A DNA stretch of 53,743 nt from Acidimicrobiaceae bacterium (lineage in GTDB: Bacteria; Actinomycetota; Acidimicrobiia; Acidimicrobiales; RAAP-2): the NCBI GenBank assembly GCA_003164095.1, contig PLRX01000081.1, positions 1-53,743 of the forward strand. Reading direction: 5' to 3'. The position numbers were made by a program, and so were the translations under genes. The notes under the pieces are model-generated. The model searched no databases. It saw nothing but the letters and a program-made list of their open reading frames with translations, and was not told the origin of the DNA. Numbering within the stretch: position 1 is the first letter of the stretch; each line of letters begins with the position of its first letter. Positions 20,613-32,543 of this stretch are shown piece after piece.

Positions 20613-21281
20613 GTGACCCAGAGGACGCCACCCGCACACCGACGCGCCCCCACCCGGGGCGTCGACGACCTGCTGTCCGACGCGGCCCGGACGCCGCTCG
20701 GTGGACCCGAGGGCAATGCCCGGTTGACCGGCGCGACCGCCGCCGTGCTCCTGGTGCTGCTGGCCGCCGAGGGATTCACCGTGCTCCGGGTCGGGGCGTT
20801 GCTCACCCCGCACGTCGCCATCGGGATGATCCTCGTGCCCTTCGTCGCCGTCAAGATCGGCTCCACCGGCTGGCGAATGGCCAAGTACTACCTGGGCGAC
20901 GCCGCCTATCGCGAGCGGGGTGCGCCACCGATCCTGCTGCGGCTGCTCGGCCCGCTGGTCGTCCTTCTCACGGCCCTGCTGTTCGCGTCGGGCATCGCGT
21001 TGCTGCTGGTCCCCCACTCCCTGCGCCAGGAGACGATGTTCGTCCACAAGGCCAGCTTCGTCCTCTGGTTCGGCGCCATGGCGATCCACGTCCTCAGCCA
21101 TGTGCTCGAGACGAGTCGGCTGGCCCCGGCCGACCTGATGTCGCGCACCCGTTCGCAGGTGAGCGGGGCCGGCACCCGATTGTGGGTGCAGGCGGGCTGC
21201 CTGGTGGTCGGCATCATCCTGGCCGTCGTGATGGTGCCGACCATCGGCCCCTGGCTTGCCGGCGGGGGCATCGGCGGGTGA
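20613..21281 (+). CDS. Cytochrome b561/DUF4405-like membrane protein
   Basis: A 222-aa protein with about five transmembrane helices. Conserved-looking His residues lie in GALLTPHVAIGM (helix 2) and in VHKASFVLWFGAMAIHVLSH (helix 4), the spacing seen in two-helix b-heme proteins such as cytochrome b561 and DUF4405, so heme binding is plausible but not proven. GTG start. It lies 28 bases ahead of the response-regulator gene on the same strand and heads the redox cluster. Confidence 0.6.
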   Translation: MTQRTPPAHRRAPTRGVDDLLSDAARTPLGGPEGNARLTGATAAVLLVLLAAEGFTVLRVGALLTPHVAIGMILVPFVAVKIGSTGWRMAKYYLGDAAYRERGAPPILLRLLGPLVVLLTALLFASGIALLLVPHSLRQETMFVHKASFVLWFGAMAIHVLSHVLETSRLAPADLMSRTRSQVSGAGTRLWVQAGCLVVGIILAVVMVPTIGPWLAGGGIGG

Positions 21282-21309
21282 GCCGCCAGCTGGGCCACAC
21301 TGTTGGGCG

Positions 21310-21978
21310 ATGAGGGTGCTGGTGGCGGAGGACGACCCAGGTCTGCGCTCGGTGCTCGAGCGCGGGTTGCGCGAGCACGGGTACGTCGTCGACGCCGTGG
21401 AGGACGGTGCCGCCGCGCTCGCCTACCTCCGCTCCTACGAGTACGAGGTGGCGGTGCTGGACTGGCGCATGCCGGCCACGACCGGAATCGAAGTGGTGCG
21501 TGCCATGCGGGCCAGGGGTGACCGGACGCCGGTGCTGATGCTGACCGCCAGGGATGCCACCGAGGACCGGGTCGAGGGCCTCAACGGAGGTGCTGACGAC
21601 TACCTGGTCAAGCCCTTCACGTTCGCCGAGCTGACCGCCCGGCTCTCGGCCCTGCAGCGCCGGCCGCCGCTCGCACTCGATCCCGTGCTGGCCTGCGGCG
21701 ACCTGACCTTCGACCCGACGACCCGAATGGCCTCCGGGCCCGAGGGACCGCTGAGCCTCACCGCCACGGAGACAGCCCTGCTGGAGCTCCTCCTGCGGCG
21801 GGCGCCGGCGCCCGTCAACCGTCGGACGATCGCGATCCAGGTGTGGGACGACGAGGCCGACCCGGTCGGCTCGAACACCATCGACGTCCACGTCGGACGC
21901 CTCCGGGGGAAGCTGGCGGACACGTCGGCCAGGATCGAGACCGTGCGCGGCTTCGGCTACCGCATCGTCCCCGCATGA
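21310..21978 (+). CDS. OmpR/PhoB-family response regulator
   Basis: A 222-aa two-component response regulator. The receiver domain has the acidic pocket AEDD, phospho-acceptor Asp51 in AVLDWRMP, switch Thr79 and Lys101 in LVKPF. The C-terminal winged-helix DNA-binding domain (about residues 128-220) includes NTIDVHVGRLRGKL and VRGFGYRI. An in-frame start upstream (21256) is ignored because the ATG at 21310 begins the receiver domain exactly. It overlaps the kinase gene by 4 bases (ATGA). The 11-bp repeats upstream of the 23323 gene are its most likely target (inference). Confidence 0.93.
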   Translation: MRVLVAEDDPGLRSVLERGLREHGYVVDAVEDGAAALAYLRSYEYEVAVLDWRMPATTGIEVVRAMRARGDRTPVLMLTARDATEDRVEGLNGGADDYLVKPFTFAELTARLSALQRRPPLALDPVLACGDLTFDPTTRMASGPEGPLSLTATETALLELLLRRAPAPVNRRTIAIQVWDDEADPVGSNTIDVHVGRLRGKLADTSARIETVRGFGYRIVPA

Positions 21979-23219
21979 GGCGCCCCGACGCCCGCTGGGG
22001 CCACGCCGCCCGGGTGGCGCTGGCGGCCACCGCCGTCGTCGGCATCGTCGCCCTGCTGTTGGTGCTGACGGTCAACGGACTGATCGTGCGCCGGCTCGAC
22101 CACGATGTCGACAGCCGGCTGGCCGCGACGCTCGCCACCACGTCGGCCACCGGCTCGGCGCCGGTCTCCTCGGGTGGCCACGGCGGCGATCTCGACGACG
22201 TCCCCGACTTCGTCTGGCGGGTGGGTCCCACCGGGACGGTCACGGCACTGAGCATCGCAGCGCCCGATCTGCCCGTCCGGGCCTGGCACGCCGGCTCGGT
22301 CACCCTCGAGTCCGGTGGTACCAGCTTCCGCTTCGGCGCCGTCCCGTCGGGTGACGGCTGGCTCGTGGCGGGCGAGAGTGTGGCCAGGGTCACCGACGCC
22401 CGGGGCGAGCTCCTCGTCGCCGAGCTGGTGCTCGGCGCGCTGCTCCTGCTCGTCACCTTCACCGGATCCTTCATCGTGGGCCTGCGGGCATCGGCGCCGA
22501 TCGAGCAGGTGCGGCGGCGCCAGGCCGAGTTCACGGCGGATGCCAGCCATGAGCTACGGACGCCCCTGAGCGTGATCGAGGCCGAGGTCGACCTGGCGCT
22601 CGCCCGGCCCCGGGACGGCGACTCGTATCGGGACACCCTCGAACGGGTCGCCTCGGAGAGCCACCGGCTCCGGGCGATCGTGGACGACCTCCTCTGGCTG
22701 GCCCGGACGGACGGAGGCGAGTCGCACCGGGGCACCGTCGGAACGGTCGACGTGGCCGAGGTAGTGGCCTCGGCCGGCGACCGGTTCCGGGCCGTGGCGG
22801 ACGCCGGCTCGATCGCGCTCGTCACACGGTCCGGTCCCCCGGGGTCGGCGCGGGTCCGCGCCGACCAGGAGGGTATCGACCGACTGGTGACCGTCCTCGT
22901 CGACAACGCCTGCAAGTACGCCGGAACGGCTGGCACCGTCGAGGTCTCGACCGGCACCTCCGGTGGGCGGGTCACGCTCGCAGTGGACGACTCGGGCCCT
23001 GGCATACCGATCGAGCACCGCGACCTGGTGTTCGACCGCTTCCACCGGGCCGAGCGGGGACCCGGCGGGACCGGTCTCGGACTGGCCATCGCCGACGCCG
23101 TGGTGCACGCCACCGATGGTGCCTGGTCGGTGTCGACGTCGCCCCTCGGGGGCGCCCGGTTCGAGGTCACGTGGCGACAGGCCGCACGGGTGGTCGAGGG
23201 GCAACCGGCACCGACGTGA
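21975..23219 (+). CDS. Sensor histidine kinase
   Basis: A 414-aa membrane kinase. Transmembrane helices at about residues 11-37 and 150-170 flank a ~110-residue extracytoplasmic sensor region. The H-box is FTADASHELRTPLSVIEAEV (His192), followed by an ATPase domain with N-box VDNACKYAG, G1 DDSGPGIP and G2 GGTGLGLAIA. A recognisable HAMP domain is short or missing. It phosphorylates the adjacent regulator. The signal is unknown; redox state is a guess from the neighbours. Confidence 0.92.
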   Translation: MRRPDARWGHAARVALAATAVVGIVALLLVLTVNGLIVRRLDHDVDSRLAATLATTSATGSAPVSSGGHGGDLDDVPDFVWRVGPTGTVTALSIAAPDLPVRAWHAGSVTLESGGTSFRFGAVPSGDGWLVAGESVARVTDARGELLVAELVLGALLLLVTFTGSFIVGLRASAPIEQVRRRQAEFTADASHELRTPLSVIEAEVDLALARPRDGDSYRDTLERVASESHRLRAIVDDLLWLARTDGGESHRGTVGTVDVAEVVASAGDRFRAVADAGSIALVTRSGPPGSARVRADQEGIDRLVTVLVDNACKYAGTAGTVEVSTGTSGGRVTLAVDDSGPGIPIEHRDLVFDRFHRAERGPGGTGLGLAIADAVVHATDGAWSVSTSPLGGARFEVTWRQAARVVEGQPAPT

Positions 23220-23258
23220 GGGAAGAGCGGTCCTGAGCCCTGGCCCGGACGCACACCG

Positions 23259-23293
23259 GATTCTCAGCTGATTCTTATCCTCGGTTCATCTGA
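23259..23293 (+). promoter_or_regulatory. Three OmpR-type 11-bp direct repeats at the redox operon promoter
   Basis: GATTCTCAGCT (23259), GATTCTTATCC (23270) and GGTTCATCTGA (23283) repeat with 11 and 13 bp spacing, matching how winged-helix regulators bind in tandem. The third copy covers the expected -35 position of the TAGCCT promoter at 23311, so activation is the likely mode. Confidence 0.6.
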
Positions 23294-23310
23294 GTGTCAG
23301 GTTGCCTCCG

Positions 23311-23322
23311 TAGCCTGCACCC
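23311..23322 (+). promoter_or_regulatory. Leaderless-type -10 element (TAGCCT, 6-bp spacer)
   Basis: TAGCCT at 23311-23316 is followed by 6 bases and the ATG at 23323. There is no ribosome binding site, consistent with a leaderless mRNA for the redox operon. Confidence 0.55.
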
Positions 23323-23694
23323 ATGACCAGTACCGGGCGCAGCAGTTCCAGGGGCCGCCAGGATCCGTCGCGCGCCGCACGCCGCCAGCGTGACGCCGGT
23401 CTCGAGCGGGGGCGCACCATCACCAAGGGCATCGCCGCTGTGTCGGTGGCGGCGGTGGCCGCGGCTGGCGTCTATCTGAGCCAGGCCCTGCCAGGCCACT
23501 CGGCATCGACGTCGACCACCAATTCCGGCACCGCCGGCGCAGTGACGCCGGCCGCACCCTCGGCCTCCCCGTCCGGGGGCTCCTCCTCGTCGTCAGCAGG
23601 ATCGTCGGCCGGCAGCGGGTCGGGCATCTCGGCACCGGCGGCGGCACCCGCCCCCGCCTACCAGCAGGCCCCCGTCTCCAGCGGCGCGAGTTGA
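23323..23694 (+). CDS. Small membrane-anchored Ser/Ala-rich protein, 123 aa
   Basis: An N-terminal basic stretch (about 1-33) is followed by one hydrophobic helix (about 36-55) and a flexible outside region of Ser, Gly, Ala and Pro. It ends in AYQQAPVSSGAS. No folded domain is evident. The final SGAS resembles the [S/T]-G-A-[S/T] core of ApbE flavinylation sites, but the preceding Asp and the FMN-binding domain are missing. It is the first gene of the 4-bp-overlapping operon and its stop overlaps the apbE TTG start. Its role may be as a tether or electron-transfer linker; unknown. Confidence 0.75.
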   Translation: MTSTGRSSSRGRQDPSRAARRQRDAGLERGRTITKGIAAVSVAAVAAAGVYLSQALPGHSASTSTTNSGTAGAVTPAAPSASPSGGSSSSSAGSSAGSGSGISAPAAAPAPAYQQAPVSSGAS

Positions 23695-24665
23695 GCCCGG
23701 CGACGTCCGACCTCGACGACAGGACCCACCTGGCCGTCCACCGCTCGACCCGTTGGTCCACCCGCATGGAGCTGCTGGTGACCGACCCGACGGTCGTGGT
23801 CGCCGCGGCGCGGATCCTCGACGCGCAGTTGGACCGGGTCGAGGACGCGGCCAGCCGCTTCCGGAGTGACTCGGAGCTCAGCCGCATCCAGCAGTCCGGC
23901 AACGGTCGCACCGTCGCGGTGTCACGACTGCTCCTCCAGCTCCTCGCCACCGCCCTCCGGGCCGCCGAGCTGACCGACGGGCTCGTCGACCCGACGGTGG
24001 GCACCGCCCTGATCCGCCTCGGCTACGACCGCGACTTCGCCGATGTCGGCGACGTGGTCGACGGACACCTCCCGGACCCGGCTCACGTGCCCGGCTGGCG
24101 GTCCGTCGAACTCGACACCGGGCGCTGCACCGCGACCATCCCGGCGGGCACCGTGCTCGACCTCGGGGCCACGGCCAAGGCCTGGGCGGCCGACCGCGTC
24201 GCCGAATCCATCACGTCACGACTCGGTTGCGGGGTGCTCGTCTCCCTCGGGGGTGACATCGCGGTCCACGGGGCACCGGGCGGGGGGTTCGTCGTCGGCG
24301 TCGCCGACGTCTGCGGCGACCCCGATGCCCCGACGGCCGTCGCCATCACCTCGGGTGGTCTCGCCTCGTCCGGCATCGGCAACCGCCACTGGTCGCTCGC
24401 CGGCACGCCGGTCCACCACGTGATCGACCCACGGACGGGCCTGCCGACCGCCTCGTGCTGGCGGACCGTGACGGTCGCGGCCGGCACCTGCGTCGACGCC
24501 AACACGGCCTCGACGGCGTCCCTCGTGCTCGGCGAGGACGCACCCGGGTGGTTGGCCGATCGACACCTCCCGGCCCGCCTCGTGCGGATGAACGGGACCG
24601 TGGTGACCGTCGCCGGCTGGCCCGACGACACCCTCACGCCCGCACCCGTCGGAGCCCACCCGTGA
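23691..24665 (+). CDS. apbE: FAD:protein FMN transferase
   Basis: ApbE family, 324 aa; moves FMN from FAD onto a Thr/Ser of a target protein outside the cytoplasm. Motifs are SRFRSDSELSRIQ near the N-terminus, TDGLVDPTVGTALIRLGYD, LDLGATAKAWAADRVAE, VSLGGDIAVHG and HHVIDPRTGLP, with ANTASTASLVLG near the end. No lipobox or signal peptide is visible, which is unusual because many ApbE proteins are lipoproteins. Start TTG, overlapping the previous stop (TTGA). No standard FMN_bind target is encoded in this operon. Confidence 0.93.
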   Translation: MSPATSDLDDRTHLAVHRSTRWSTRMELLVTDPTVVVAAARILDAQLDRVEDAASRFRSDSELSRIQQSGNGRTVAVSRLLLQLLATALRAAELTDGLVDPTVGTALIRLGYDRDFADVGDVVDGHLPDPAHVPGWRSVELDTGRCTATIPAGTVLDLGATAKAWAADRVAESITSRLGCGVLVSLGGDIAVHGAPGGGFVVGVADVCGDPDAPTAVAITSGGLASSGIGNRHWSLAGTPVHHVIDPRTGLPTASCWRTVTVAAGTCVDANTASTASLVLGEDAPGWLADRHLPARLVRMNGTVVTVAGWPDDTLTPAPVGAHP

Positions 24666-25795
24666 GTCCTGCCGTGCTGACGACTGCAGCCGTGGGCGGG
24701 AAGGCCTTCTGGTATCTGACCCGCTCCAGCGGTGTCGTGGCGCTCGTGCTCCTGAGCGCCACCCTCGTGCTCGGTGTCGTGGCCTCGGTCGGCTGGACGA
24801 CCGAGCGCTGGCCACGCTTCCTGTCCCAGGACGTCCACCGCAACGTCTCCCTCCTCGGCCTGGTGTTCGTCGGCGTGCACGTGGCCACCACCGTGCTCGA
24901 CGGTTACGTGCCCATCGGCCTGGCCGACGTCGTCGTGCCCTTCATCTCGCCCTACCGCCCCATCTACGTGGGCCTCGGCGCACTGGCGTTCGACCTCATG
25001 CTGGCCGTGCTGATCACGAGCGGCCTGCGCCACCGCATCGGCTACGGATCGTGGCGGTTCGTCCACTGGCTCGCCTACCTCTGCTGGCCTATCGCGCTCG
25101 TGCACGGCCTCGGAACCGGGACCGACACCCAGCTCCCCGTGGTGCTCTTCATCGAGGTGGTCTGCACGGCGGCCGTGCTGGGCGCCTTCACCTGGCGGAT
25201 GGCCACCGGTCGGTCGATCGATCCCGCCCGGCGCGCCGCGGCGGCCTCCGGCGCTGTCGTGCTGGCCCTGGCCATCGGCGGCTTCGCCATGCTCGGCCCG
25301 CTGCGACCGGGGTGGTCCCACCGCTCGGGGACGTCGCCCTCGCTCCTGGCCGAGCTGGCCACCAGGAGCGGTACGTCAGCGACAGGCACCACCGCTCCCT
25401 CTTCCGGGTCGGCACAGACGTCCACCGCGGGGAACGGCACCGGCACGGTCCCTTCGGTGCCCTTCACCAGTCAGGTGAGCGGTACGCAGACCCAGTCCGG
25501 CCCCGACGCCCAGGGCAACGTCCGGATCTCACTGGCCATGCACCTGGCGGACGCCGCGTCGACGCCGCTGACGGTGGTGCTCGTCGGCGCCCAGTCGGGA
25601 GGCGGCGTGTCGCTGTCGACCGGCACCGTCACCTTCGGGGGCGACTCGGGGTCCGTGGTCGGGCTCAACGGCGGCTCGGTCGTGGCGACGGTGTCGACGC
25701 CGTCGCCGATCACCCTCACGATCCAACTCCAGGTCGACCAGCAGACGGGTGCGCTGTCCGGCACCATCGCCGGTGCCGCGGGATCGCACCGATGA
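24662..25795 (+). CDS. Ferric-reductase-like transmembrane protein with extracytoplasmic domain
   Basis: A 377-aa protein with six or so transmembrane helices in the first ~220 residues. Paired His in DVHRNVSLLGLVFVGVHVAT and in WRFVHWLAYLCWPIALVHG match bis-heme b binding in ferric-reductase-like proteins. After a Ser/Thr-rich linker, the last ~110 residues form a predicted beta-rich extracytoplasmic domain. It should carry electrons across the membrane. No FAD/NAD domain is attached; the next gene may supply that. GTG start overlaps the apbE stop (GTGA). Confidence 0.85.
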   Translation: MSPAVLTTAAVGGKAFWYLTRSSGVVALVLLSATLVLGVVASVGWTTERWPRFLSQDVHRNVSLLGLVFVGVHVATTVLDGYVPIGLADVVVPFISPYRPIYVGLGALAFDLMLAVLITSGLRHRIGYGSWRFVHWLAYLCWPIALVHGLGTGTDTQLPVVLFIEVVCTAAVLGAFTWRMATGRSIDPARRAAAASGAVVLALAIGGFAMLGPLRPGWSHRSGTSPSLLAELATRSGTSATGTTAPSSGSAQTSTAGNGTGTVPSVPFTSQVSGTQTQSGPDAQGNVRISLAMHLADAASTPLTVVLVGAQSGGGVSLSTGTVTFGGDSGSVVGLNGGSVVATVSTPSPITLTIQLQVDQQTGALSGTIAGAAGSHR

Positions 25796-27054
25796 CGGCT
25801 CCGACGGGGCCGGGCCGGCTCCTCGACAGTGTCGGGACCGCGGAGGTCGTCCGCCTCGACGCCCATCTGGCGCGCTGGGGCGCGGTGCCCGACCTCCCGG
25901 TCCGCAGCCTCCTCGAAGCCGTCGACCAGTCCGGGCTCCGCGGGCACGGCGGGGCCTGGTTCCCGGTCGGCGCCAAGTGGCGATCGGTCGCAGCCGGCCG
26001 CTCGCCGATCGTGGTGGCCAACGGCGCCGAGGGGGAGCCGGCGAGTGGCAAGGACCGGCTCCTGCTCCACCACGCCCCCCACCTGGTACTCGACGGCGCG
26101 GCCGTGGCGGCCAAGGCGGTCGGGGCGAGGCGGGTGATCGTCCACGTGTCCGACGACTCCGTGGCCGACGTGACCACGGCCCTGGCCGAGCGCGAGCGCC
26201 GGGGCGTCGACGCGTGCAGCTTCGAGGTCGTGATCGCTCCCGACCGCTTCCTGTCCGGCCAGGAGTCGGCCGTCGTCAACACGGTCAACGGACGCAACAT
26301 CGGGATCCCGTCGTTCGTCGCGCTGCGACCCGTCAGGGAGCAGGGCATCGCCGGGCGTCCCACCCTGGTCCAGAACGTCGAGTCGTTGGCCGATGTCGCC
26401 TTGATCGCCCGGTACGGGCCCCAGTGGTTCCGCAGCGTCGGGACTCACGACTCACCCGGCACGGCGCTGATCACGGTGACCGGGCTGTGGGAGTCGTCCA
26501 GGATCGTGGAGGTCCCGCTCGGCACCACCCTCGAGAACGCCCTCGGGATCACACCGGGACGGGCCGACACCATCCAGGCGGTGCTGCTCGGTGGGTACGG
26601 CGGCGGGTGGCTACCCACTTCGACGGCGCTCTCGCTCCCCTTCACCGAGGAGGCGGCCCGCGCCCTCGGCACCTCGATCGGCGCGGGCGTCGCCGTCCTG
26701 CTGCCGGCAGGCGTCTGCCCACTGGTCGAGGTCGCACGGGTCGCACGGTACATGGAGGGCGAGGGAGCGGGTCAGTGCGGCCCGTGCGTCAACGGGTTGG
26801 ACGTCCTCGCCTCCCAGCTCGAGCTCCTGGCCCACCGTCCGCACACGCTGAGCGGCGGACTGTCAGCGTTCCCCACCCTGTGCGGGCTCGTCGAGGGACG
26901 GGGGGCGTGCCACCACCCCGACGGGGTCGCCCGGTTCGTCCGGTCCGCCCTCGGCGTGTTCGGCGATCACGCGGCGGTCCACCTGCAGCGGGGGCCGTGC
27001 CAGACGACCCGGCCGTTCCTGCCCGTGCCGTCCGCCTCGGGTGTCCTCCGATGA
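25792..27054 (+). CDS. NuoF-like NADH:acceptor oxidoreductase (flavin/Fe-S)
   Basis: 420 aa, homologous to the 51-kDa subunit of complex I. FMN/NADH-site motifs are GLRGHGGAWFPVGAKW, VVANGAEGEPASGKDR and LSGQESAVVNTVNG, followed by NVESLADVALIARYG and an SLBB-like region, then a Cys-rich end (GQCGPCVNGL and TLCGLVEGRGAC) for a probable [4Fe-4S] cluster. No other complex I subunits are nearby, so it probably oxidises NADH for the membrane protein upstream. The ATG overlaps the previous stop (ATGA), and its own stop overlaps the ferredoxin ATG. Confidence 0.88.
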   Translation: MTAPTGPGRLLDSVGTAEVVRLDAHLARWGAVPDLPVRSLLEAVDQSGLRGHGGAWFPVGAKWRSVAAGRSPIVVANGAEGEPASGKDRLLLHHAPHLVLDGAAVAAKAVGARRVIVHVSDDSVADVTTALAERERRGVDACSFEVVIAPDRFLSGQESAVVNTVNGRNIGIPSFVALRPVREQGIAGRPTLVQNVESLADVALIARYGPQWFRSVGTHDSPGTALITVTGLWESSRIVEVPLGTTLENALGITPGRADTIQAVLLGGYGGGWLPTSTALSLPFTEEAARALGTSIGAGVAVLLPAGVCPLVEVARVARYMEGEGAGQCGPCVNGLDVLASQLELLAHRPHTLSGGLSAFPTLCGLVEGRGACHHPDGVARFVRSALGVFGDHAAVHLQRGPCQTTRPFLPVPSASGVLR

Positions 27055-27266
27055 GCCGCAGCCGCTTCCGCCTGGTCGTCGACCCCGTCGCCTGCGACGG
27101 TGCCGGCGTGTGTGCCGAACTGCTGCCCGAGGTGATCTCCCTCGACCCGTGGGGCTTTCCGATCGTCGCCTCGGGCGACGTGGCGCCCGGACTGGTCGAC
27201 ATGGCACGGCGAGCGGTGGTCAGCTGCCCGCGCCTCGCACTCCACCTGGTCCGCGTCGACGACTGA
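27051..27266 (+). CDS. Single-cluster ferredoxin, probably [3Fe-4S]
   Basis: 71 aa. The Cys pattern CDGAGVC (C-x5-C) plus a distal SCP fits single-cluster [3Fe-4S] ferredoxins with a replaced central Cys. It should pass electrons between the NuoF-like protein and the membrane b-heme protein. Last gene of the operon; the bidirectional hairpin at 27306 follows. Confidence 0.88.
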   Translation: MSRSRFRLVVDPVACDGAGVCAELLPEVISLDPWGFPIVASGDVAPGLVDMARRAVVSCPRLALHLVRVDD

Positions 27267-29115: not shown

Positions 29116-30096
29116 TCAGAAGGTGGCCGGCAGTGCCCGCGCCACGCTCTCGCAGGCGAAGAGGCCGCACAAGACGACGACCGGTGCGGCGAAAAGGTAG
29201 ACGAGCCACGGGCGGCGGAGCCGCCAGGCCAGGAACCCTGCGCTGACGAGCACGATGAGAGTGAAGAACGACCACATGGCGGCGAGGCCACCGGCCGACG
29301 GGTCGCCGCTGAGGCCCAGTTCGTAACTCGGGACGGCGATGGTGTCGTCGGGCACCTCGACGGCGTGGCCGACGAGCTTGCCCTGGACGACCTCACGTCC
29401 ACTGGTGATCAGGCTCGAGTTCGAGGTGACCAGGGTGATCCGGTCGTCGATCGTCGGAAGCACCACGTCCTTGTGACCGATCGGCACCTGCAGGATGTGC
29501 GTCACCTTGTAGGTGAATCTGCCGGCGCCGTCGACGACATTGATCTTGGCGCCCGTGTGCAGCGCGCCGATGTTTCCGAACGTGGCACCGAAGGTCACGC
29601 GCCTCCCGGCGATGACCGAGTTCCCCACGGACCCCGGAAGTGCCGAACCCGGCATCAGGCCGGGCCCGTTCATGAGGTCGGCGGCGCTGGTGCCCTGGAC
29701 GACGATCTGGTCGACCCCGATCGACGGGATCTGCAGGACCGCCACTGCGCTGCCCTCCGGAGGCAGGTGCCCGTTGACCAGCTTGTAGACGGTCAGGGGC
29801 TGCCCCTTGAGCGAGCCGGCCAGACGTTGTTGGTCGCGCGAAGCGGTGAGCGGCGTGAAGGCGTAGAGGTAGACGAGGAACAGGGCGAGCAGGCCCGCGA
29901 CACCGACGAGTGCGAACCCGCACAGGCGTCGGTAGGGGATGGCCGGGATGGTGATGGTGTGCCCCGGCGGGGTGGCGTCGCGCTCCTCGGGCACCCAGGC
30001 CTCGTCGAAACCCTTGGACGGAACGGGTGCGCCAATGCTCGGGACCTCCGTCGCCCCGAAGGCCAACGTGACCACGTCTGCGTCCGCGCCGGTCAC
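29116..30096 (-). CDS. Sortase-fold membrane protein lacking catalytic His and Cys
   Basis: 326 aa: N-terminal cytoplasmic region, transmembrane helix (~58-80), a sortase-like beta-barrel domain (~100-250), then two C-terminal transmembrane helices (~260-316). Sortase landmarks align: LQIPSIGVDQIVVQGTS, SVIAGRRVTFGATFGNIGAL and DDRITLVTSNSS. The positions of the catalytic His (normally AGH) and Cys (normally TC) hold Arg165 and Ser225; Arg234 could be the third residue. It is therefore probably inactive as a transpeptidase and may act as a binding or scaffold protein. GTG start overlaps the stop of the large PstS-like gene (GTGA). Confidence 0.75.
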   Translation of the reverse strand: MTGADADVVTLAFGATEVPSIGAPVPSKGFDEAWVPEERDATPPGHTITIPAIPYRRLCGFALVGVAGLLALFLVYLYAFTPLTASRDQQRLAGSLKGQPLTVYKLVNGHLPPEGSAVAVLQIPSIGVDQIVVQGTSAADLMNGPGLMPGSALPGSVGNSVIAGRRVTFGATFGNIGALHTGAKINVVDGAGRFTYKVTHILQVPIGHKDVVLPTIDDRITLVTSNSSLITSGREVVQGKLVGHAVEVPDDTIAVPSYELGLSGDPSAGGLAAMWSFFTLIVLVSAGFLAWRLRRPWLVYLFAAPVVVLCGLFACESVARALPATF

Positions 30097-32543
30097 AGCG
30101 GACCTCCATCGGACCTTCGGCGTCTGGCCGCCGCCCCGGGGCCGAACAGCAGGAGCAGGCCGCATACGAGGGACCCCAGTGCCAGCAACACGATGGCGGG
30201 CAGGAGGTAGCGCGTCGTCGCCGCCAGTGCGACCGTCAGGAATCCCGACGGGATCGATGCCGGAGGCGACGCGACCGGCGTCGACGCGGACCTGCCCGAA
30301 CCCGACGACCCACTGCTCGAGCTGGTGAGCGGCAGTTCGGTCGACGAGTTACCGGTGGAACCCGAGTCGCTCCCGGTGGACGAGTTGTCCGCGGACCCAT
30401 TGCCGTATGAGCCGTTCGACTGACCGGTCGACGGGGTCGTCGTGGACGTCGTGGACGTCGTGGACGTCGTGGAGGACTCGGATGCCGGAGCGACGGACAC
30501 GTCGTTGGTGATGTCCGCCAGTGCCGCCTTGTAGATGCTGTCCGGCAGTGGGGCGTACCCCGTCGGGACGGCGGAGCTGTGCGAGTAATTCACCAGATTG
30601 GTCAACAGTGACTTGACCGCCGTGCCGTCTGCGTTGGAGAACGTCGAGGTCGGCACCATGGCATAGGTGATGTTGGTCAGGGGATAGGCCGCCGGGTTGG
30701 TGTCGGCGTAACTGACCGAGTAGGTGCCAGCCGGACAGCTGAGCTCGCCGGTCGGGCAGGGTGTGAAGTCTGCGGCGGCGGCCTCGAGGCTGGTCGTGTC
30801 CGGGGCGACGAAGTTGCCAGCGGCGTTCTCGAGCGATGCGGTCGACAGGCCGAGGAAGCGGGCCTCGGAGGTGTCCATGAGGCCGAATGCGGCACATGGT
30901 TGCTGCTCGCCACCGGGCGGTGCCGGGAGGACGCCACCGCCGTAGCACCACGTCCGCATCGCCTTCGCCTGGCCGCTCGGCTGCTGGGCGGCACCGAAGT
31001 TGGTTCCGGTGGCGGCCAGGGCGGGCAGCGTCGAATAGCCCTGGCACTGGGGGAAGATCCACGATGCCCCGGGGTAGGGCGGCCAGACCGACGATCCGAG
31101 TGGCACCGTGGTGAGCGTGGTGGATCCCACATTGGTGTCGGTCACCGTCACCGGAACTGGGTCCGCGTGGCCGTTCTCGGCGACCGATACCTGGAACTTG
31201 GTGTTGGGGGCATTGCACACCCATTGGGTGGCCTGGTAGCTCGAGCCGCTGGCGACGTTGGAGTTGAACGAGCCGAAGGTCTGCGGGGCGTAGTCACCCG
31301 CCGGCACCGGGTTCAGCAGCGAAAATGAGGTGTTCCGTGCCTCGTATGCCATCTGCTTGGCGATCTTTTTTGTCGACGGGCAGCCTGCCAGGACGGCACA
31401 GGTCACAGGAGGCGTGGCGGCGGCCAACGCAGCCGTGAGGTTGTCGGACAGCAGAAACTGCGGCTTCGGCGGGGACGAGACGGTACCGGCCGGCGACTGG
31501 TAGAGCGACGTGATCAGTCCGGCCAACATGTTGGGGGTGAGCTTGTACTGGTTGATCGGAAAAGGTTGGCCCTCGTTCGATTCACCGGCGAGGAAACTCT
31601 CGGTCGTACCGCTCAGTGCGATCGGGATGTACGCATAGGCCTTACCGAGCAGCGACCCGAGTTGCGACGCGTCCGACGCGTTGTCGACGAAAGCGAGCGT
31701 CGTCGAGCCGGCGGCGAAATGCTGGACGACGTGGCTGTCGTCATTGGTCGTGTAGTTCGCGATGACGCCCCCCGCTTGGGCACATGTGGCCACGACGGCC
31801 GCCGGAAGGAACTGCTGCAGACTGTAGGAGTCCTCCACCGTGACCGACGGGTCCGCGGATGGGCACCCCGTGGACTGCCCTGCGAACGTCAGAGGGATGA
31901 TGGCGGAGTTCGCTGCGGTCACGTCGGGGCCATTGCCGACGGCATTGCCCTGACCACCTTCGGCGGTGACGATCAGGTCACACGGAGCGGACGCGTCGTC
32001 ACAGTTGAAACTCGGCTCGATGCCGTGCTTGTTGGTGATGTCGTGAGCAGGGATGAGGCTGTTCCCCTCACCCGCCGGATCGTAGAAGACGGGATAGGAC
32101 AATGACGTCAGGTTCGACGTCGACGGCTCGTTGGTGACGGGTACCGTCGTCGGTGTCAGCGCCTGGGTCTCCCACTGCCCGTTCAGACAGGTCGGGTCCG
32201 ACGTCGATCCCAGGGCGGAGCAGAAGGCGACCCGGATGCTCCCGGTCGGATCGAAGTTGGTGGCGCTCACATAGACGTACTGGCCGTCGTTGACGTTGGT
32301 GTTCGGCTGGACGTCGACCGTCGGGCAGTTCGTGGACTGGCCGGCGGGGCAAGGCAGGACCATCTGGCAGCCACCGTTCCCGTCGGAGGTGCAGACGGTC
32401 GAGGCACCTGCGCTCGACGAGCGCGAAGAGAGCGACACCGCGGCTCCGGCGAACGAGACCGAGGCCACGATGAGGAGGAGTGCGAGCCAGACGCGCGGGC
32501 TGCGTCGGCCTCGTGTGGTCGTTGACGGCGTGCGGACGGACAT
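30093..32543 (-). CDS. Large membrane-anchored PstS-like protein, 816 aa
   Basis: Signal-type N-terminus (RVWLALLLIVASVSFAGAA), then a long extracytoplasmic region with several Cys and PstS-like pieces such as NQYKLTPNMLAGLITSLYQ. A low-complexity Ser/Thr/Gly linker follows (about 690-765), then a transmembrane helix (LLPAIVLLALGSLVCGLLLL) and RRRR at the cytoplasmic end. LPLTS occurs before the helix but too far from it to be a normal sorting signal. Position after pstS suggests phosphate or phosphate-ester binding on the outside surface; unproven. ATG at 32543 has GAGGA upstream; a GTG at 32609 has no ribosome binding site. Confidence 0.72.
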   Translation of the reverse strand: MSVRTPSTTTRGRRSPRVWLALLLIVASVSFAGAAVSLSSRSSSAGASTVCTSDGNGGCQMVLPCPAGQSTNCPTVDVQPNTNVNDGQYVYVSATNFDPTGSIRVAFCSALGSTSDPTCLNGQWETQALTPTTVPVTNEPSTSNLTSLSYPVFYDPAGEGNSLIPAHDITNKHGIEPSFNCDDASAPCDLIVTAEGGQGNAVGNGPDVTAANSAIIPLTFAGQSTGCPSADPSVTVEDSYSLQQFLPAAVVATCAQAGGVIANYTTNDDSHVVQHFAAGSTTLAFVDNASDASQLGSLLGKAYAYIPIALSGTTESFLAGESNEGQPFPINQYKLTPNMLAGLITSLYQSPAGTVSSPPKPQFLLSDNLTAALAAATPPVTCAVLAGCPSTKKIAKQMAYEARNTSFSLLNPVPAGDYAPQTFGSFNSNVASGSSYQATQWVCNAPNTKFQVSVAENGHADPVPVTVTDTNVGSTTLTTVPLGSSVWPPYPGASWIFPQCQGYSTLPALAATGTNFGAAQQPSGQAKAMRTWCYGGGVLPAPPGGEQQPCAAFGLMDTSEARFLGLSTASLENAAGNFVAPDTTSLEAAAADFTPCPTGELSCPAGTYSVSYADTNPAAYPLTNITYAMVPTSTFSNADGTAVKSLLTNLVNYSHSSAVPTGYAPLPDSIYKAALADITNDVSVAPASESSTTSTTSTTSTTTPSTGQSNGSYGNGSADNSSTGSDSGSTGNSSTELPLTSSSSGSSGSGRSASTPVASPPASIPSGFLTVALAATTRYLLPAIVLLALGSLVCGLLLLFGPGAAARRRRSDGGPL
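30442..30468. repeat. Three 9-bp tandem repeats (GTGGACGTC) in a Thr/Ser linker
   Basis: Three perfect copies, encoding Thr-Ser-Thr runs in the linker of the large PstS-like protein. Such a tract could change length by slippage without breaking the frame. Confidence 0.6.

Follow-up and report, generated by a model that had tools for sequence, protein, structure and literature searches.

A domain-less membrane-tethered tail protein as proposed flavin carrier of a probable NADH-driven transmembrane electron-transfer cluster in Actinobacteria

The window analysed here, a stretch of 53,743 nucleotides (nt) from an Acidimicrobiaceae bacterium (GenBank assembly GCA_003164095.1, contig PLRX01000081.1, positions 1 to 53,743 of the forward strand), contains a compact redox operon in which five genes between 23323 and 27266 are joined by four 4-bp stop/start overlaps (TTGA, GTGA, ATGA, ATGA). 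An earlier sequence-only reading of this DNA had reported these genes, coordinates and overlaps, and direct reading of the sequence bears them out. The first gene encodes a small tail protein, here called SMALL, which we propose as substrate of the flavin mononucleotide (FMN) transferase ApbE encoded directly behind it. The core cluster comprises the following features:

23323..23694 (+): tail protein SMALL, proposed ApbE substrate, with basic N-terminus, one membrane helix and a low-complexity Ser/Ala/Pro/Gly tail
23428..23487 (+): predicted membrane helix of SMALL, about residues 36-55, placed by eye from the sequence and from the charge asymmetry in homologues
23680..23691 (+): C-terminal SGAS of SMALL, corresponding to the [ST]GA[ST] flavinylation motif, with Ser123 as proposed FMN-bearing residue
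23691..24665 (+): ApbE (flavin adenine dinucleotide (FAD):protein FMN transferase), TTGA overlap with SMALL, Asn271 where solved ApbEs have Asp
24662..25795 (+): Ferric_reduct-type membrane protein (FRD), GTGA overlap with ApbE, predicted NOX/STEAP fold
25792..27054 (+): NuoF-like NADH/FMN/iron-sulphur (FeS) protein, ATGA overlap with FRD
27051..27266 (+): single-cluster ferredoxin of the Fer4_15 type with three Cys, ATGA overlap with the NuoF-like gene

Of 148 genomes of the order searched with NuoF, 68 have a match at E ≤1e-40 and 27 at E ≤2.2e-68; a profile search at E ≤1e-90 hit 52 genomes in a sample of 395 from the class and 34 in one of 396 from the phylum, these samples overlapping. 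From a scan of named genomes the best 80 of 544 loci, ranked by similarity, were taken; they span Acidimicrobiia, Streptomyces, Nocardia, Rhodococcus, Amycolatopsis, Solirubrobacterales, Dormibacterota and others. Altogether 190 stretches were compared, the window included: since 80 of them come from the similarity-ranked list and the others are the best matches among those listed, the fractions given below are not prevalences. A NuoF-like gene is present in 189 stretches and ApbE is encoded on the same strand within 5 kb in 138, which were thinned for near-duplicate clusters to 131 distinct core loci. The order SMALL, ApbE, FRD, NuoF-like protein, ferredoxin recurs in 115 of these 131 and thus is not an arrangement due to chance; conserved co-occurrence in relatives, which the sequence-only reading had named as a check on its proposal, was found. 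The 18 NuoF-like proteins most distant on the tree are accompanied by neither ApbE nor SMALL.

SMALL of the window has 123 residues: a strongly basic N-terminus, one hydrophobic helix and a tail composed mostly of Ser, Ala, Pro and Gly that ends ...AYQQAPVSSGAS. Its last seven residues are PVSSGAS, with SGAS as residues 120-123, and the start codon of apbE overlaps the stop codon directly after this motif. The protein gave no Pfam match at E up to 1, FMN_bind (PF04205) included, and no NCBIfam match at E up to 0.1; six homologues likewise gave no FMN_bind match, with hits to unrelated families at chance level only (best E 0.02). The sequence-only reading had stated that no standard FMN_bind acceptor is present, which by Pfam is right for the locus, but it missed SMALL as a non-standard candidate: having no domain, this class is invisible to domain searches. 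ApbE transfers FMN to the last residue of an [ST]GA[ST]-like motif (PMC8238504; PMC12052999). SGAS supplies the [ST]-G-A-[ST] part of the substrate motif D-x-x-[ST]-G-A-[ST], and the window ending would appear to work like the canonical ApbE motif without matching it in full.

Homologues of SMALL were collected in two ways, the first using a hidden Markov model (HMM) of the N-terminal and helix part only, with tails left out, whose 17 seeds were chosen by eye with their endings already seen, the second using a rule blind to the ending (a helix, an S/T/A/P/G-rich tail and a stop near the ApbE start), which yielded a candidate in 110 of the 138 loci. The resulting 140 proteins were reduced to 133 distinct ones by removing 7 duplicates and loci with the stop outside the stretch; the set retains L067, probably a wrong-frame pick, and lacks L129 (DSTSGAS) and L082 (TGASSVP), which have a tail protein that was lost through the blind filter. 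Among these 133 endings, [ST]GG[ST] was found 47 times, [ST]GA[ST] 22 times and another [ST]Gx[ST] 6 times; 10 show TGA[ST] followed by 1-5 residues, 8 show SG[GS][ST] followed by 1-3 residues, 9 are [ST][ST]GS-like, 18 carry a Cys pair and 13 are motif-less (the Cys-pair loci L071 and L174, placed in another class in the shuffle and tree labels, are corrected in these counts). The exact terminal [ST]G[GA][ST] occurs in 69 of the 133 proteins, whereas 500 shuffles of the tails gave 0.6 on average and never more than 4, and over the last 40 residues the motif lies at the very end in 69 proteins and at any other position in 6 at most. The same ending was found in 16 of 19,540 other open reading frames (ORFs; at least 60 residues, same stretches), and in the other cluster proteins it is seen in 0/138 ApbEs, 0/138 FRDs, 0/138 NuoF-like proteins, 0/137 ferredoxins and 1/17 cytochrome-like proteins. 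In all nine loci named as Streptomyces the ORF before apbE ends [AT]DSTSGAS and hence holds a complete D-x-x-[ST]-G-A-[ST]; these nine copies are not independent, as they form one branch of the NuoF tree.

Two groups depart from this pattern in their own way. At the sister-group loci L041, L074, L077 and L082, two consecutive tail proteins with TGAS near the end lie upstream of apbE, the first of them continuing after TGAS into a Gly/acidic tail, e.g. THASTGASSAHSGGDDGGGDD. The Cys-pair branch consists of small-genome relatives (L071, L075, L076, L122, L123, L141, L149, L168, L174, L176, L178, L179, L181-L184, L190, L194) whose endings have [PA]SG in the middle and in most cases lack Ser/Thr at the position to be modified, e.g. 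CYTSPSGNVTCY; here a disulfide loop or dithiol could possibly replace, or hold, the flavin.

The ApbE of the window matches PF02424 with 167.1 bits (cut-off 25.6). In the Vibrio cholerae (Vc) enzyme His257 and Ser241 are catalytic and Asp285 is part of a proposed triad (PMC12052999). In the alignment columns taken to correspond to Vc His257 and Ser241, the catalytic His is retained in 128 and the Ser in all of 129 cluster ApbEs. At the column of Asn271 of the window protein, taken as that of Vc Asp285, the solved ApbEs from T. maritima and T. pallidum have Asp: this Asp next to Ala in the C-terminal motif is a trait of characterised ApbEs outside the PF02424 family definition, and the cluster ApbEs instead show Asn in 114, Glu in 14 and Gly in 1 of the 129, with Lys at a second position in 13 of the 14 Glu-type proteins. 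Replacement of this Asp seems usual in these bacteria, since 19 further ApbEs from 12 genomes, those that could be aligned among 21 loci (20 chosen for the comparison plus L046), have Asn in 10, Glu in 8 and Asp in 1. It makes ApbE activity less certain, whilst family membership is unaffected.

The type of ApbE varies together with the ending of its partner (129 ApbEs, duplicates not thinned). The exact chain-end motif is present in 58 of 114 partners of Asn-type ApbEs and in 0 of 15 others, whereas TGA[ST] followed by 2-4 residues is present in 10 of 14 partners of the Glu-type, which marks a sister group, and in 0 of 114 of the Asn-type: such co-variation would be expected of a matched enzyme and substrate. 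With the further ApbEs, the HMM located a SMALL in the stretch for 6 of the 10 Asn-type proteins and for 0 of the 9 others, this HMM having been trained on Asn-type partners; one of the nine non-Asn loci, L244, holds a protein ending TTGASAATP.

From the SMALL stop to the ApbE domain the median distance is 54 nt, and it is at most 75 nt in 84 of 115 cases. A start so near this stop leaves ApbE almost no space for a signal peptide, and inspection by eye of 115 cluster ApbEs revealed none; the 13 hydrophobic windows that were flagged mostly represent strand 1 of the domain, with L038 as the least clear case. Judging from these sequences, cluster ApbE is probably cytoplasmic, and it follows that the flavin would be attached before export of the tail, or that the tail stays inside. 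Over the 133 SMALLs the mean net charge is +4.2 for the 20 residues that precede the helix and +0.3 beyond it, the N-side being more positive in 125 of them, and the tail should therefore lie outside (N-in/C-out). SMALL may nevertheless have a cleavable signal peptide: AxA-like sites near the helix end occur in 127 of 133 proteins, but they are uninformative, as the sequence is so rich in Ala.

FRD matches Ferric_reduct (PF01794) with 35.7 bits (cut-off 28) and His59, His73, His135 and His148 are invariant in 22 FRD sequences; the protein thus combines PF01794 with two predicted bis-His heme sites. Its AlphaFold model (mean pLDDT 79.1) resembles the transmembrane fold of NOX and STEAP heme proteins, with fold matches to SpNOX (Z 12.8), STEAP4 (12.0) and NOX5 (11.9). 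In difference to these proteins, Pfam detected no FAD/NAD domain in the window FRD, so that the NuoF-like protein and the ferredoxin would feed it, and part of the FRDs add a beta-barrel: in the model, residues ~265-376 (window ~25454-25789; the last 110) form an 8-strand barrel domain resembling the Diels-Alderase, dirigent, avidin and allene oxide cyclase barrels with Z of ~7 to 9.8, values that could reflect the common arrangement alone. Among 77 FRDs of named loci, 21 are long enough (320 residues) to align as having this barrel. By the positive-inside rule it would lie outside the membrane, and one may speculate that it offers a flavin pocket.

The NuoF-like protein matches Complex1_51K with 109.7 bits (cut-off 31.2) and NADH_4Fe-4S with 39.7 (23.5), and most of its profile can be aligned with complex I subunits, 2FUG chain 1 being the best match (E 1.6e-77). 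It scores 176 bits against the NCBIfam nuoF equivalog cut-off of 558.65 and has Ala in place of the first Cys of CxxCxxC, and hence we regard it as NuoF-like and not as a complex I protein. The ferredoxin matches Fer4_15 (PF13459) with 40.6 bits (cut-off 22.4); judging from its three Cys only, it presumably holds a [3Fe-4S] cluster. Pairs of FRD and NuoF-like genes also occur at L214-L218, where no apbE or tail protein was found in the stretch of ~12 kb.

We regard it as probable that the cluster encodes a self-contained line carrying electrons from NADH across the membrane, with SMALL, a new type of ApbE substrate, as its outer carrier. Electrons from NADH would enter the FMN and FeS centres of the NuoF-like protein, pass to the small ferredoxin and from there to the two b hemes of FRD with its NOX/STEAP fold, and would then reach an FMN at the tip of the ~70-residue low-complexity arm of SMALL, bound to the last Ser/Thr through a phosphoester bond. 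The arm might swing and pass electrons to an acceptor on the far side of the membrane, for which the cluster has no gene, whilst cytoplasmic ApbE would have modified the newly made C-terminus before export of the tail. The order of steps up to the tail-tip FMN is deduced from an FRD without FAD/NAD domain together with the features of the NuoF-like protein. The proposal builds on gene order, on the motif with its conservation and on the conserved histidines, all read from sequence, and on predicted folds; from these we infer the modification of Ser123, tail export, direction of flow and acceptor. The path from NADH to an extracytoplasmic flavin suggested by the sequence-only reading is still the best one, although it left the flavin without a protein, for which SMALL is now the likely carrier. 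Of the two topologies, we prefer modification inside followed by export; a motif at the end of an unfolded tail lends itself well to this. With moderate confidence we further propose that SMALL is a natural flavin tag of Actinobacteria: a domain-less, membrane-tethered, disordered arm, flavinylated on its last residue before export, serving as a swinging-arm carrier that evolved together with a cytoplasmic Asn-type ApbE accepting SGG[ST] and SGA[ST].

Several observations weigh against this proposal. An ApbE that is probably cytoplasmic fits badly with a flavin on the outside. The motif Asp, six residues ahead of the modified residue, is Pro117 in window SMALL, and the commonest ending, SGGS, has Gly at the Ala of the known motif; in 18 of the 133 SMALLs the motif gives way to a C-terminal C-x(7-10)-C although ApbE is retained, and another 13 show no motif that can be recognised, among them the SMALL of L087, a close relative of the window (...VVSSVS). 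The motif also ends 4 of 190 other ORFs that pass the helix-plus-tail rule, which possibly are further tail proteins. The co-variation of ending and ApbE type may be shared ancestry alone, since both ApbE types cluster on the tree, and FMN_bind proteins occur as well in 21 of the 26 cluster genomes examined. As to the motif itself, exchange of its Asp for Ala had minor effects only in a known ApbE substrate, whereas Ala to Val left about half of the flavinylation in one substrate (PMC12052999); for Gly at this place (SGGS), no test of flavinylation was found in the parts of the literature consulted.

It is conceivable, although we judge it unlikely, that the tail stays in the cytoplasm, its tip FMN acting as an inner-side flavin between NuoF-like protein or ferredoxin and the inner heme and so replacing the FAD domain that NOX-type proteins have. 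The lack of room for a signal peptide on ApbE and of a detected FAD/NAD domain in FRD would suit such a layout, but the charge asymmetry around the helix points to the opposite orientation and the ferredoxin is already there to feed the inner heme.

The genomic context speaks in part for SMALL as the acceptor and also bears on two less probable explanations. The FMN_bind test took 26 of the 80 named loci, and 5 of these 26 cluster genomes gave no match. Three of the five encode no ApbE other than that of the cluster: L090, a metagenome-assembled genome whose SMALL ends VSGAT, and the named strains Rhodococcus sp. 06-235-1A and Jiangella endophytica, with the weaker endings TTHGS and SSGS. All 12 genomes tested with a cluster lacking adjacent apbE (10 of the 12 SMALL-bearing loci without adjacent ApbE, leaving out L070 and L132, plus L098 and L102) have an ApbE elsewhere, a weak result as 7 of 14 control genomes were positive too; in one genome without adjacent apbE, the sole ApbE (L235) belongs to a second cluster, which has a SMALL of its own with the ending SGGS. 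The genome of the window has one FMN_bind match, on another contig and beside its own apbE. It also has two further ApbE-FRD-NuoF-ferredoxin clusters with tail proteins ending TSGQS and STGASGAKP (these clusters and the separate ApbE/FMN_bind pair are on contigs G000:C2, G000:C123 and G000:C56).

We consider it improbable that SMALL uses its C-terminal peptide to dock to the heme protein or to ApbE, with ApbE modifying another target or acting on free FAD: the imperfect motif of many SMALLs, the Cys pair in its stead in 18 of them and the FMN_bind proteins that ApbE might serve in 21 of 26 genomes would be accommodated, but the ending is the recognition motif of ApbE itself, complete in Streptomyces, and the three genomes with a single ApbE hold no FMN_bind match. 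We also give a slim probability to a standard MsrQ-like flavinylation system in which an FMN_bind protein from another locus is the real acceptor: MsrQ-like systems with NuoF are published (PMC8238504) and the genome of the window does hold such a protein on another contig, yet that gene adjoins an apbE of its own, and five cluster genomes gave no FMN_bind match. Finally, the ribosome-binding site and the overlapping start of apbE hardly account for the ending: GGAGG does translate to Gly-Gly, NTGA (N = G, A or T), permitting the 4-bp overlap, stands at the stop of 62 of the 75 SMALL genes with [ST]Gx[ST], and a Shine-Dalgarno-like four-base word lies within the last five codons of 20 of these 75 (a count without shuffled expectation), but the codons of the first motif Ser/Thr (TCN 51, ACN 13, AGY 11) and of the last (TCN 62, AGY 8, ACN 5), the use of all four third bases in the first Gly codon and the absence of such an ending from the other overlapping genes of the cluster disfavour this origin. 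The codon variety thus indicates that selection acts on the amino acids.

Returning to SMALL as outer flavin carrier, the closest known systems include the MsrQ-like flavinylation clusters, of which 31 include a NuoF-like protein (Meheust et al. 2021, PMC8238504). They are common in Actinobacteria and share with the present cluster apbE, a PF01794 heme protein and NADH entry through a NuoF-like protein, as well as the same proposed path from NAD(P)H to an extracytosolic flavin; here, in contrast, the acceptor is domain-less and ApbE apparently without signal peptide. FMN_bind/NqrC/RnfG acceptors (PF04205) are flavinylated by ApbE at Thr/Ser in [ST]GA[ST], as would be proposed for SMALL, which differs in having neither FMN_bind nor another known domain and in carrying the motif at the chain end. 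The FMN_red substrates (Huang et al. 2024, PMC11334425) also bear the flavinylation site on an unstructured C-terminal tail, although that tail serves the pocket of a folded flavoprotein, whilst SMALL consists entirely of helix and tail. In the engineered flavin-tag (PMC12052999) a seven-residue motif alone suffices for ApbE and works best at a terminus; in comparison with this man-made tag SMALL is natural, often has Gly for Ala and usually lacks the Asp. In open-licence PMC papers, supplements excluded, neither a domain-less or C-terminal flavinylation acceptor nor this operon was found by title or abstract; the parent system (MsrQ-like with NuoF) is published. The electron line would thus be of a known kind, its flavin carrier very probably of a new one.

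SMALL provides a concrete candidate substrate class for Actinobacteria. If the proposal is true, it would suggest that a flavin can act as electron carrier without having a folded pocket to itself; the recognised ApbE motif would be extended to SGG[ST], to Asp-less forms and to the chain end, and the question would arise how a flavin-bearing tail crosses the membrane. SMALL would then be the natural counterpart of a tag engineered by chemists, and its pairs with ApbE would offer natural enzyme/tag combinations for protein labelling.

Upstream of the core cluster lie three further genes:

20613..21281 (+): small membrane protein with five long predicted helices, cytochrome-b-like, an optional neighbour
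21310..21978 (+): OmpR-type response regulator, PF00072 (Response_reg) and PF00486 (Trans_reg_C) above the Pfam cut-off
21975..23219 (+): sensor histidine kinase, PF00512 (HisKA) and PF02518 (HATPase_c) above cut-off

An ATGA 4-bp overlap joins the histidine kinase to the response regulator, and both genes are found within the stretch in 71 of 131 distinct core loci. The protein at 20613 had been taken for a b-heme protein: it is a His-rich membrane protein, with three His invariant in 14 sequences (His67, His145, His159), but its likeness to cytochrome b is weak, as PF01292 (cytochrome b561) is matched in 2 of 14 members only (best E 0.0039) and Foldseek gave no significant match to its fold (best E 1.0). 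A homologue is present in 21 of 190 stretches and lies on the strand of the cluster in 17 of 138 core loci. In one of the loci (L061:8601-9257, minus strand), the cytochrome-b-like protein ends LSGAS, and a second cluster protein may thus carry the chain-end motif.

Among the matches listed, read by eye and for hub sequences only, no conserved terminal oxidoreductase was seen beside the cluster, and recurrent neighbours look like housekeeping genes or antisense reading frames. Before the tail gene, the window holds TTCTCA-N5-TTCTTA at 23261-23277, repeats 11 bp apart that perhaps are a candidate site of the adjacent response regulator; as a common regulator box this pattern was rejected, being present in just 2 of 111 loci. 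Outside the cluster, annotation of the window covered seven neighbours. Downstream, at 29119-30165 on the minus strand, a sortase-domain protein (PF04203) is encoded, in which the expected catalytic segment, TLxTC in sortases, reads TLVTSNSS, with Ser for Cys.

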